Of a DNA stretch of 35,611 nt, positions 30,518 to 34,703 are shown piece by piece. The stretch comes from Bacteroidota bacterium. GTDB lineage: Bacteria > Bacteroidota > Bacteroidia > Chitinophagales > Chitinophagaceae. The DNA is taken from contig CANHLZ010000003.1 of the NCBI GenBank assembly GCA_947461595.1, positions 1 through 35,611 on the forward strand, in the 5' to 3' direction. A program made the translations under genes and the position numbers. Under the pieces are notes generated by a model. That model was not told where the DNA came from and ran no database searches. It saw only the letters and a program-made list of their open reading frames with translations. How positions within the stretch are numbered: the first letter of the stretch is position 1; each line of letters opens with the position of its first letter.

Positions 30518-32947
30518 TTAACCCACTAAAGCCAAATCAAGTACTTGCTGCATGGTTTTAACATAATGGAAAGTGAGGCCTTTAATAAAAGTATGGTCAA
30601 TTTCATTGATGTCTTTTTCATTTTGCCAGCAGAGAATAATTTCTTTCATGCCCGATCTTTTAGCGGCTAATATTTTTTCCTTGATGCCCCCAACTGGCAA
30701 TACTTGGCCTCGTAATGTAATCTCCCCTGTCATCGCCAGATAAGGCTTTACTTTTCTTCCAGTAAAGGCAGAGGTCAATGCAGTGAGCATAGTAATTCCA
30801 GCACTAGGACCATCCTTAGGCACAGCTCCTTCTGGCACATGAATATGAACCGATTTAGTGGTAAACAAATTAGGATCAACACCAATTTTTTTAGCATTGC
30901 TTTGTAAATAAGTAAAAGCGGTATCCGCACTTTCTTTCATTACATTACCAAGATTGCCTGTTAATTTCATTCCGCCTTTCCCCTCAGCGAGTAGGACTTC
31001 AATAAATAAAATGTCCCCGCCCACATAAGTCCAGGCCAAACCAACGGCTACCCCTGGCATATTCACCGTTTTATAAATTTCATTACTGTATTTAGCTTGT
31101 CCTAAAATTTTATGCAAGTCAGATTTAGTTACAGTAGGTTTAACTTTATTTTTATAAGCCAACTCTTTGGCTTGATAACGCATAATAGAAGCCAATTGAC
31201 GATCTAATTCACGCACCCCACTTTCTCTGGTATAATCTTCAATTACTTTTTCTAATACATTGTCCAATACTTTAAAAGTAATTTTTTCTAAGCCATGGGC
31301 AGTTCTTTGTTTAGGCAATAAATGCCTTTTGGCAATTTCTACTTTCTCTTCAATGGCGTATCCACTTAGGTCAATAATTTCTAAGCGATCTCTAAGTGCT
31401 GGCTGAATACGACTAATGTCATTAGCGGTAGCAATAAATAAAGTTTTACTTAAATCATATTCTGATTCTAAATAATTATCATAAAAACTATGGTTCTGTT
31501 CTGGGTCTAATACTTCTAATAAAGCCGAAGAAGGATCGCCTCTATGGTCACTCCCTATTTTATCAATCTCATCTAAGATCATCACAGGATTAGAAGTTTT
31601 TATTTTTCGAATACTTTGGATGATTCTTCCAGGCATTGCCCCAATATAGGTTTTACGGTGCCCTCTAATTTCACTTTCATCATGCAAACCTCCTAAACTT
31701 ACTCTAATATATTTTCGACCAATGGCATGCGCAATAGACTTTCCTAAAGAAGTTTTACCAATACCAGGAGGGCCTAAAAAACAAAGTATGGGACTTTTCA
31801 TATCCCCTTTAATTTTAAGTACGGCCAAGTATTCTAAAATTCTATTTTTAATCTTTCCCATTCCATAATGATCGGCGTCCAATACTTTTTTAGCATTTTT
31901 TAAATCATAGTTATCGGAAGTATATTCTTCCCAAGGAAGGTCTAATAATAAATCTAAATGATTATACACTACTGAATAATCGGGCGTGCTTGGATGCATT
32001 CGCTCCAACTTTTCCAATCCATTTTGGAAAAGTTTTTTTGCCGCTTCTGGCCATTTTTTACCTTCGGCTTTCTTTTTCATATCCGCCACTTCGCGCTCAT
32101 TCGGATCTCCCCCTAATTCATCCTTAATACTTTTTAATTGTTGTTGTAAAAAGTAATCGCGTTGTTGCTTATCAATTTCGGTGCGTGTTTTATTAGCTAC
32201 TTTATTTTTTAATTCAACAAATTGTAATTCTTGCTGTAAAAATTGAATTAATTTTTCGGCTCTTAATTTAATTTGATTCTGTTCCAGCAACCCTTGCTTG
32301 TCATGTACTTCCACATTCAAGTTGCTACTCACAAAATTGATTAAGAAAATAGGATTTTCTATATTTTTTAATATCATCGCTGCCTCCGAAGGAAAATTGG
32401 GTGACAACTGAATAATTTGAGTAGCTAAATCTTTAATATTGGATAAATATGCTTGAAAATCTTGATCTTCTTTTCCAAGCTTTTCTTCTACCAATACTTT
32501 CACACTGGCTTTAAAAAAGGGGTCCTCTTCTTTCATTTCTAAAAGCTCAAACCTTTTTTTGCCCTGAATAATAATAGTAGTTCCACCGTCCTGCATTTTA
32601 ATCATTTTGATGATTTTTGCAACGGTTCCTATAGCACATAAATCGCTAGGTGTAGGATCTTCAATATTGCCATCCTTTTGAGAAACCACTCCAATTAATT
32701 TGTCTTTGGCATAAGCTGCTTTTACAGCTTGAATGCTTTTATCTCTCCCTACGGTAATTGGAATGACTACACCAGGAAACAATACAGTATTGCGCAAGGG
32801 CAAAATGGGCAATAGTTCATCAATGACCAATTCAGGCTCATTCTCTTCCTCTTGTTCATTGAATGAAAACAAAGGTATAAACTCGTTTTCTTCCTCCCCC
32901 TTAAATAAAAATGTCTTGTCCACTGTTTGTATTTTAAATATAGTCAA
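30518..32947 (-). CDS. lon: ATP-dependent protease Lon (endopeptidase La); start is non-ATG (TTG at 32947 or GTG at 32923)
   Basis: LPILPLRNTVLFPGVVIPITVGR, LCFLGPPGIGKTSLGKSIAHAIGRKYIRVSLGG, MILDEIDKIG, catalytic PKDGPSAGITMLTAL. Confidence 0.97.
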   Translation of the reverse strand: MTIFKIQTVDKTFLFKGEEENEFIPLFSFNEQEEENEPELVIDELLPILPLRNTVLFPGVVIPITVGRDKSIQAVKAAYAKDKLIGVVSQKDGNIEDPTPSDLCAIGTVAKIIKMIKMQDGGTTIIIQGKKRFELLEMKEEDPFFKASVKVLVEEKLGKEDQDFQAYLSNIKDLATQIIQLSPNFPSEAAMILKNIENPIFLINFVSSNLNVEVHDKQGLLEQNQIKLRAEKLIQFLQQELQFVELKNKVANKTRTEIDKQQRDYFLQQQLKSIKDELGGDPNEREVADMKKKAEGKKWPEAAKKLFQNGLEKLERMHPSTPDYSVVYNHLDLLLDLPWEEYTSDNYDLKNAKKVLDADHYGMGKIKNRILEYLAVLKIKGDMKSPILCFLGPPGIGKTSLGKSIAHAIGRKYIRVSLGGLHDESEIRGHRKTYIGAMPGRIIQSIRKIKTSNPVMILDEIDKIGSDHRGDPSSALLEVLDPEQNHSFYDNYLESEYDLSKTLFIATANDISRIQPALRDRLEIIDLSGYAIEEKVEIAKRHLLPKQRTAHGLEKITFKVLDNVLEKVIEDYTRESGVRELDRQLASIMRYQAKELAYKNKVKPTVTKSDLHKILGQAKYSNEIYKTVNMPGVAVGLAWTYVGGDILFIEVLLAEGKGGMKLTGNLGNVMKESADTAFTYLQSNAKKIGVDPNLFTTKSVHIHVPEGAVPKDGPSAGITMLTALTSAFTGRKVKPYLAMTGEITLRGQVLPVGGIKEKILAAKRSGMKEIILCWQNEKDINEIDHTFIKGLTFHYVKTMQQVLDLALVG

Positions 32948-33013
32948 AATGGCATAATTCCTACTTGTATTCTTTCTTGAAGTATGCCTACCCCTTTAAG
33001 ACAATATTGATGC

Positions 33014-33048
33014 CAAAAAAAATCCTCCCCGATAAATCGAGGAGGAGC
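33014..33048 (-). terminator. Rho-independent terminator of the small lipoprotein gene
   Basis: Minus-strand TCCTCCTCGATTTATCGGGGAGGA followed by TTTTTTTT. Confidence 0.85.
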
Positions 33049-33084
33049 TTCTTGCAAGAAGTTATATTTCTATGACTTCTTAAA

Positions 33085-33249
33085 TTACTTCGCAGCAGCA
33101 GTAGTATCTACGGCAGCAGCAGCAGTATCAACAGTTGCAGCAGCAGCTGTATCAACAGTTGCAACAGCAGTATCAGTTTTTACTTCAGTTGCAGCACCAC
33201 CACAAGCAGCAAGTGCAGCGATAGCGAAAATTGCGATTACTTTTTTCAT
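33085..33249 (-). CDS. Small Ala/Thr/Val/Asp-rich octapeptide-repeat lipoprotein (54 aa), not in the supplied ORF track
   Basis: Translation MKKVIAIFAIAALAACGGAATEVKTDTAVATVDTAAAATVDTAAAAVDTTAAAK; lipobox ALAAC; near-consensus promoter upstream and terminator downstream. Confidence 0.85.
   Translation of the reverse strand: MKKVIAIFAIAALAACGGAATEVKTDTAVATVDTAAAATVDTAAAAVDTTAAAK
33088..33159 (-). repeat. 24-nt tandem repeat encoding TVDTAAAA-TVDTAAAA-VDTTAAAK
   Basis: Two exact octapeptides and one diverged copy in the 3' half of the lipoprotein ORF. Confidence 0.75.
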
Positions 33250-33288
33250 TTTTGTTTTTGTTTAAAGTTTGATATCAAAATACGTTGG

Positions 33289-33320
33289 CGAAGATAGCCA
33301 ACCCCATTAAAAACGCCAAA
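33289..33320 (-). promoter_or_regulatory. Bacteroidota housekeeping-sigma promoter for the small lipoprotein
   Basis: Minus-strand TTTG-N20-TATCTTCG, followed by an A-rich leader AAACAAAAACAAAAATG. Confidence 0.65.
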
Positions 33321-33365
33321 TTTTAACATTTATTTTTTAAACCTACTTTATTCACAGACTAAATT

Positions 33366-34703
33366 CTATTTTTTTCTAAAATAGATCCGAATGGGCACCC
33401 CAGTGAACTTGAAATTAAGCCTAAGCTGATTTTCGAGGTAATTTCGGTAAGGAACCTTAATATCATCAGGAAAATTAGTAAAAAAGGCAAAACTTGGAAC
33501 CCTTGTAGGCAACTGTGATACATATTTAATCTTAATGACATGCCCTCTTACTACCGGTGCCTGGTATTTCATTATAGACTTCAACATAATGTCATTTAAT
33601 TTTGAAGTAGCCACTTTACGGTGCTTATTCTCATATACTTCCAAAGCCAATTCGATGGCTTTAAAAATACGGGTCTTTTCAACCGCAGAGATGAATAAAA
33701 CAGGCACATCGGTAAAAGGTGCCAGTTTGTCTTTTACCACTTTCTCGTAATCACGAGCTGTATTGGTTTCTTTGTCTAATAAATCCCATTTATTAATCAA
33801 TACGATAATTCCTTTCCCTTTCTTTGAAGCAAGGCTAAATATGCTTAAATCTTGAGCCGTAACCCCTTTGGTGGCATCCACCACCAATAAACAGACATCC
33901 GCCTCGTCCATGGCTTTAATGGCTCTGATAATGGAGTAAAATTCAAGATCATCCTTTTCCTTATTCTTACGTCTAATACCAGCTGTGTCAATTAGGATAA
34001 ATTCCTTTTGGAACATGGTATAATGGGTATGTATGGTATCGCGGGTAGTGCCTGCTATATCACTTACAATGGTTCTATCTTGACCAATCATAGCATTCAA
34101 TAAGCTAGATTTGCCCACGTTAGGTTGCCCCATAATAGCAATTTTAGGAATCGCTAATGGTTCTTCTTCCCCTTCTGCTATTTCTTCATCATCATTGCTC
34201 ACTTCTTTTATCTTGATATCGTTGGTCACTGCGTCTAAAAGCTCACCTGTACCACTACCAGAAATAGAACTTACAAAGTAGTTATGTTCAAAGCCCATAC
34301 CGTAAAACTCGGTACCTTCTAAGGCACGGGTGGAATTGTCCACCTTATTTACGCAAACATACACTGGCTTCGTACTTCTTCTAAGCATATCGGCCATAGA
34401 AGCATCTAAGTCGGTTAAACCAACGGCAGCATCCACCATGAAAATGATTGAATTGGCTTCTTCGATAGCAATTTTAACCTGCTTGCGAATCTCCGTTTCA
34501 AACATATCACGAGAATCAGGTACAAAACCACCTGTATCAATTACGTTAAAGGTTTTGCCAGCCCATTCTGTCACACCGTATTGACGGTCTCTGGTAACAC
34601 CACTAATATCGTCCACAATGGCTTTACGCTCCTCTAAGAAACGATTAAATAAAGTGCTTTTTCCTACGTTTGGCCTTCCAACAATAGCCACTGTATAGCT
34701 CAT
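33366..34703 (-). CDS. der: Ribosome biogenesis GTPase Der (EngA)
   Basis: Two G domains: GRPNVGKSTLFNRF...DTGGFV...NKVD and GQPNVGKSSLLNAM...DTAGIRRK...NKWD; C-terminal KH-like domain. Confidence 0.97.
   Translation of the reverse strand: MSYTVAIVGRPNVGKSTLFNRFLEERKAIVDDISGVTRDRQYGVTEWAGKTFNVIDTGGFVPDSRDMFETEIRKQVKIAIEEANSIIFMVDAAVGLTDLDASMADMLRRSTKPVYVCVNKVDNSTRALEGTEFYGMGFEHNYFVSSISGSGTGELLDAVTNDIKIKEVSNDDEEIAEGEEEPLAIPKIAIMGQPNVGKSSLLNAMIGQDRTIVSDIAGTTRDTIHTHYTMFQKEFILIDTAGIRRKNKEKDDLEFYSIIRAIKAMDEADVCLLVVDATKGVTAQDLSIFSLASKKGKGIIVLINKWDLLDKETNTARDYEKVVKDKLAPFTDVPVLFISAVEKTRIFKAIELALEVYENKHRKVATSKLNDIMLKSIMKYQAPVVRGHVIKIKYVSQLPTRVPSFAFFTNFPDDIKVPYRNYLENQLRLNFKFTGVPIRIYFRKK

Follow-up and report, generated by a model that had tools for sequence, protein, structure and literature searches.

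A conserved small lipoprotein of Chitinophagaceae with serial D-[ST] sequons, encoded at two loci with different promoter types

The closest described relatives of the protein analyzed here are the small lipoproteins typified by PG1828 of P. gingivalis, which is triacylated and linked to TLR2 signalling (PMC10126205, PMC5693985). Proteins of this family are about 60 aa long, are lipidated at a Cys that follows a signal of 15-20 residues, and end in an Ala-rich, low-complexity tail; the family description includes neither serial D-[ST] sequons nor a two-locus, two-promoter arrangement. Bacteroidota also possess a general O-glycosylation system with the established sequon D-[ST]-[ALVIMT] (PMC12871550; also documented in PMC10897501), the purpose of which is an open question (PMC12871550). 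The DNA examined in this study (hereafter the window) is a stretch of 35,611 nucleotides from a Chitinophagaceae bacterium, and it encodes a 54-aa lipoprotein that shares the size, the lipidated Cys and the Ala-rich tail of the PG1828 type and combines them with both of the unfamiliar features. By sequence it is a variant form of this small-lipoprotein type. The NCBIfam model PG1828_fam_lipo (NF050142) matched each of the 24 genus members that were tested (best 1.2e-11). The window protein itself aligned over residues 1-51 to model positions 1-59 with 26.1 bits and is not a member by that rule, because the cut-off is 50; its congeners scored 23.8-44.6 bits, and one der-linked relative from another family scored 52.3.

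The 54-aa open reading frame is a real, conserved lipoprotein gene (Table 1). The initial annotation had read it between der and lon on the minus strand, and its frame from ATG to TAA, signal peptide, lipobox and mature chain of about 39 residues (exactly 39 following the lipobox L-A-A-C16) were all recovered as described. M1, K2, K3 and C16 are unchanged across 24 diverse members of the family. The upstream promoter and the hairpin with its T8 tract, both recognized in the same annotation, are likewise real: a TTTG element and a TAnnTTnG element separated by 18-22 nt lie 60-71 nt before the ATG at all der-linked copies whose upstream sequence is available (27 of 27), and 27/27 der-linked copies have a terminator-like hairpin behind the gene. 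With its own promoter and its own terminator, the gene is supported as monocistronic. A sigma-70 scan at the site found no E. coli-type promoter, as expected in this phylum. Searches with the window protein returned no match above the cut-off in Pfam, no relative among PDB sequences and no match in phage records, and no Rfam family was found within 32900..33420. Literature searches on Sediminibacterium lipoproteins, Chitinophaga alanine-rich lipoproteins and small O-glycosylated lipoproteins yielded nothing relevant.

Table 1. Positions of the small lipoprotein gene, its parts and its neighbours in the window
Feature	Coordinates	Strand	Remarks
54-aa lipoprotein gene	33085..33249	-	ATG at 33249, TAA ends at 33085; sequence read and homologues
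Signal peptide and lipobox, residues 1-16 (MKKVIAIFAIAALAAC)	33202..33249	-	Lipobox LAAC, lipidated Cys16
Repeat region, four D-[ST]-[AT] sequons	33088..33174	-	D26, D33, D41, D48
Housekeeping-type Bacteroidota promoter TTTG-N20-TATCTTCG	33289..33320	-	Sequence read; conserved at der-linked copies
Intrinsic terminator, 10-bp stem, 4-nt loop, T8	33015..33046	-	Hairpin proper 33046..33023
der, upstream neighbour	33366..34703	-	Synteny partner conserved, also in other families of the order
lon, downstream neighbour	30518..32947	-	Synteny partner conserved within the genus

A homologue search and a dN/dS comparison had been proposed along with the initial annotation, and both spoke for the gene. 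At a loose limit, 35 of the 36 other same-genus genomes gave a match, most of them far below E 1e-5, the weak matches including other lipoproteins that are alike in the signal peptide only. The one silent genome (G001) says little, because der too was unmatched there at E 1e-80. Across the genus the homologues occupy the same place between der and lon. Public records with relatives carry the labels Sediminibacterium, Chitinophagaceae or unclassified Bacteroidetes, and all are metagenome-derived. The ratio of nonsynonymous to synonymous change was below 1 throughout, at 0.27 (der-linked) and 0.38 (sigma-linked) for codons 2-16, which cover the signal peptide, and 0.66 and 0.50, respectively, for the mature part; the small lipoprotein is thus under purifying selection.

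The mature chain had been described as made almost only of A, T, V and D. This composition is correct; the placement of D, however, proved to be non-random, and all four Asp residues of the window protein stand in D-T-A or D-T-T (DTA, DTA, DTA and DTT, at spacings of 7, 8 and 7). Across 55 unique mature chains, Ser or Thr followed 258 of 260 Asp residues compared with 71 (sd 7) in composition-preserving shuffles, and 241 fitted the strict D[ST][ALVIMT] pattern compared with 44 (sd 6), scores that overstate independence because family members are related. Glu, used as a control, was not coupled to Ser/Thr (7/75 vs 20 in shuffles). Ser and Thr interchange at the position after Asp, where Ala, the commonest residue elsewhere, occurs in only 2 of the 260 cases. 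The D-[ST] pair is kept despite varying spacing and despite turnover of GAT/GAC and Ser/Thr codons, and its number is four in the window protein and four to six in its relatives. Outside the genus, 191 of 242 Asp residues in 52 chains lie in D-[ST], against 61 by shuffle. Relatives from a deep lineage carry Glu repeats and lack D-[ST]; EEAAPA repeats take its place in these PG1828-type chains (L241, L242, L246, L248, L253).

The same sequon was examined in the exported proteins of the window's own genome, using about 435 kb (20 stretches plus the window). This analysis revealed a 1.98-fold excess over expectation (z 9.1) in exported proteins compared with 1.13 in cytoplasmic proteins, and E[ST] and N[ST] controls were flat. 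Thus the window protein bears the sequon in an exported chain, and its lineage shows the enrichment among exported proteins that served as a proxy for the glycosylation system. A congener (G017) gave an enrichment of 1.54. In two genomes whose relatives of the lipoprotein are without the D-[ST] repeat, G234, from the deep lineage, and G093, a small sample, enrichment was not significant, as predicted. The distant genome G183 encodes a homologue with DSA repeats, yet its exported proteins are depleted of the sequon (0.65, z -2.8); a repeat can be present without enrichment, and the proxy fails there. The glycoproteome paper on P. gingivalis (PMC8729774) does not name PG1828 in its text.

Wherever both loci were covered, the gene was present twice. 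At the der-lon locus of the window (site A) it lies alone behind its own promoter, and at a second locus (site B) it is divergent from an ECF sigma factor gene, which is followed by a gene for a membrane trypsin/HtrA-like protease; the site-B lipoprotein gene lies upstream of pheA and an aminotransferase gene. Domain matches identify the sigma gene product as sigma70-ECF (TIGR02937) and its partner as HtrA/DegS-like. By eye, the partner has an anti-sigma-like N-terminal stretch, followed by one TM segment and then the HtrA/DegS-like domain (G000:C24:1-700, L156-L159, L174 and L185). Site B is unassembled in the window genome, where contig C24 starts in the site-B promoter region near the expected start of the lipoprotein gene and holds the sigma gene and both promoter motifs. 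In genome G006, contigs start or stop within the lipoprotein gene, and a contig of genome G029 (L052, G029:C186) has a single copy with der upstream and pheA downstream, a junction that reflects either recombination of the two loci or an assembly crossover. From these gene-internal contig ends and this der-pheA join, near-identical copies probably broke or crossed the assemblies. In 21 genomes the two copies agreed at 0.82 within a genome compared with 0.67 when copies from different genomes were compared in the same way; their 100-bp flanks agreed at only about 0.5, and in four genomes the two copies were at least as alike as either was to its nearest orthologue. We take this to be concerted evolution that acts strongly in certain lineages and is missing from others. 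G006 also encodes a longer lipoprotein (127 aa), with the c-type cytochrome motif CLTCH, whose leader and GGASTEKKTDTA stretch resemble those of the small lipoprotein (L079, G006:C3:47028).

The promoters of the two loci are of different types. At every site-B copy with upstream sequence, GGTTAC-N14..16-GTAT.A lies about 60 nt before the ATG, and a mirrored promoter of the same type faces the sigma gene. The strict pattern occurred in 35 of 41 genus genomes at a few sites each, compared with six matches altogether for the reversed control. Further strict-pattern sites (L173, L175, L177, L178, L180, L184, L188-L191, L195, L198 and L199) stand before genes for other products: a secreted DUF4294 protein; a second secreted protein, about 140 aa long, that belongs to no known family; and a protein of 95 aa bearing the glycogen-recognition domain AMPK1_CBM. 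The natural reading would be an ECF sigma factor that regulates its own gene and a small set of others, the second lipoprotein copy among them. Sharing its promoter type with the sigma gene, this copy should rise in envelope stress; ECF control, as read from sequence only, would belong to the sister copy at site B and not to the window copy. The autoregulatory-looking GGTTAC-N15/16-GTATTA promoter is conserved across orders. Look-alikes linked to der came from additional families of the order and, in a single case, from a different order. Sigma-linked relatives with a GGTTAC promoter were found in further genera of the family and, standing in tandem, in another order. Two genomes of that other order, G239 (L238, L254, L260) and G294 (L239, L255, L259), have three tandem D-[ST] lipoproteins beside the same kind of sigma gene, with GGTTAC promoters. 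The initial annotation thus had the gene and the lipoprotein right, and had missed the Asp-Ser/Thr motif, the second copy, the ECF-type promoter and the PG1828-type relatives.

Codon usage lends indirect support to the suggestion in that annotation that the protein is abundant. GCT and ACT make up 73% of the Ala/Thr codons of the window gene, compared with a genome mean of 34%, a share that none of 286 sampled genes reaches and that repeat duplication may inflate. The comparison set serves as a background, a motif search for highly expressed reference genes in the own-genome sample having returned none. Among the six genes nearest in codon bias in the congener G017, four encode what we take, by eye, to be EF-Ts and ribosomal proteins. 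The extreme bias is in keeping with abundance and points to a protein made in bulk more than to a signal. To place the chain relative to the membrane, we compared positions +2..+6, which are mostly G-G-A-S-T or N-N-G-E-N, with the LES, the surface-export signal of lipoproteins as defined in PMC5080379. No LES-like cluster (K-(D/E)2, QKDDE or S-D-D) was present there, with the proviso that the LES may differ in Chitinophagaceae. Because such a cluster is absent and O-glycosylation in P. gingivalis is biased towards the periplasm (PMC8729774), the mature chain is predicted to face the periplasm.

The reading we favor, and regard as somewhat probable, is that of a small, abundant lipoprotein that serves as a serial O-glycan carrier and is made from a constitutive copy and a stress-type copy. 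With Cys16 lipidated, the Ala/Thr/Val tail of 39 residues would face the periplasm, and the general O-glycosylation system of the phylum would add one glycan per D-[ST]-[ATV] site, turning the chain into a sugar-bristled spacer on a lipid anchor. Two nearly equivalent genes are kept in the genus; the window copy would be expressed constitutively from the housekeeping promoter, and the copy beside the ECF sigma and HtrA-like protease genes would be boosted by envelope stress. A spacer or brush role is a fair guess, and hydration may be part of it. More tentatively, and with the balance somewhat against it, dedicated glycan-carrier lipoproteins of a mini-mucin-like kind may exist throughout the phylum, having as their main role to line the periplasmic side of the membrane with O-glycans, and encoded here by twin genes (one constitutive, one under ECF sigma/HtrA-type stress control) that gene conversion keeps alike.

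Three other explanations were weighed against serial O-glycan carriage. The Ala-rich seven-residue repeat could instead form a lipid-anchored alpha-helix or alanine coiled coil, a tether or spacer of the Braun lipoprotein kind that spans from outer membrane to cell wall and in which D-S/T is the polar face of the heptad and no sugar is carried. A spacing of 7 predominates (134 of 207 intervals), the C-terminal residue is Lys in 49 of 56 members, including the window protein, AlphaFold, applied to 14 sequences, draws one long helix (residues 21-53), and L,D-transpeptidases (YkuD) are present in congeners. However, intervals of 5, 6 and 8 also occur and the D-[ST] pair outlasts these shifts, a helix does not need Ser or Thr after 99% of its Asp residues, stretches rich in T and V form helix poorly, and the AlphaFold confidence is low (pLDDT 58), for which reason the predicted helix was given no weight in either direction; seven members have H, M or N in place of the terminal Lys, and YkuD was not found in the incomplete assembly of the window's own genome. 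We consider this structural reading unlikely. An invariant C-terminal Lys was also the mark by which membership in Braun Lpp was judged, and the seven exceptions speak against it; with a variable last residue and no hydrophobic heptad core in these chains, the Lpp-like membership and mechanism proposed in the initial annotation are unsupported.

Less likely again is that the protein acts as a regulatory or sensory partner of the ECF sigma factor and HtrA-like protease, serving as a signal in the periplasm, as a substrate or an inhibitor of the protease, or as a feedback readout of lipoprotein export, like RcsF or NlpE in enterobacteria. The constant promoter type and position of the sigma-linked copy beside the sigma operon are in keeping with such a role, as is the recurrence of this linkage in other genera and another order, with up to three tandem lipoproteins there. 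The window copy, in contrast, stands apart from the sigma operon under a housekeeping promoter, its extreme codon bias suggests a bulk product, and the protein is without a folded domain. That the chain is simply a low-complexity lipoprotein under weak constraint, its motif sustained without function by slippage of a 21-nt repeat, seems very improbable. Its repetitiveness, indels and within-genome homogenisation fit slippage; the purifying selection, the persistence of D-[ST] through codon turnover, the place, promoter and terminator conserved throughout the genus, and a linkage to der that extends to further families do not. If serial O-glycan carriage is correct, a chain with little but repeated sequons on a lipid anchor would be the simplest natural substrate of the system and a handle on the role of its glycans in the phylum, and the sister locus offers a compact putative regulon of the ECF-sigma/HtrA-like kind, whose promoter signature is clear.

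Compared with known systems, the protein resembles Braun Lpp in being tiny, probably abundant, Ala-rich and mostly terminated by Lys, and differs in having no hydrophobic heptad core and a variable last residue, with no sequence relation found. The sister locus recalls Sigma-E/DegS of enterobacteria, in which an ECF sigma factor is coupled to a membrane-bound HtrA-type protease; here, by contrast, the HtrA-like domain, known from domain matches, is in the sigma-adjacent protein itself, behind a cytoplasmic-looking N-terminal stretch and one TM segment. With the substrates of general O-glycosylation in Bacteroidota the window protein shares export, the exact sequon and enrichment of that sequon among the exported proteins of its own genome. 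To our knowledge, those substrates are mostly folded proteins with one or few sites, whereas the window chain, here read from sequence alone, consists of sequons.
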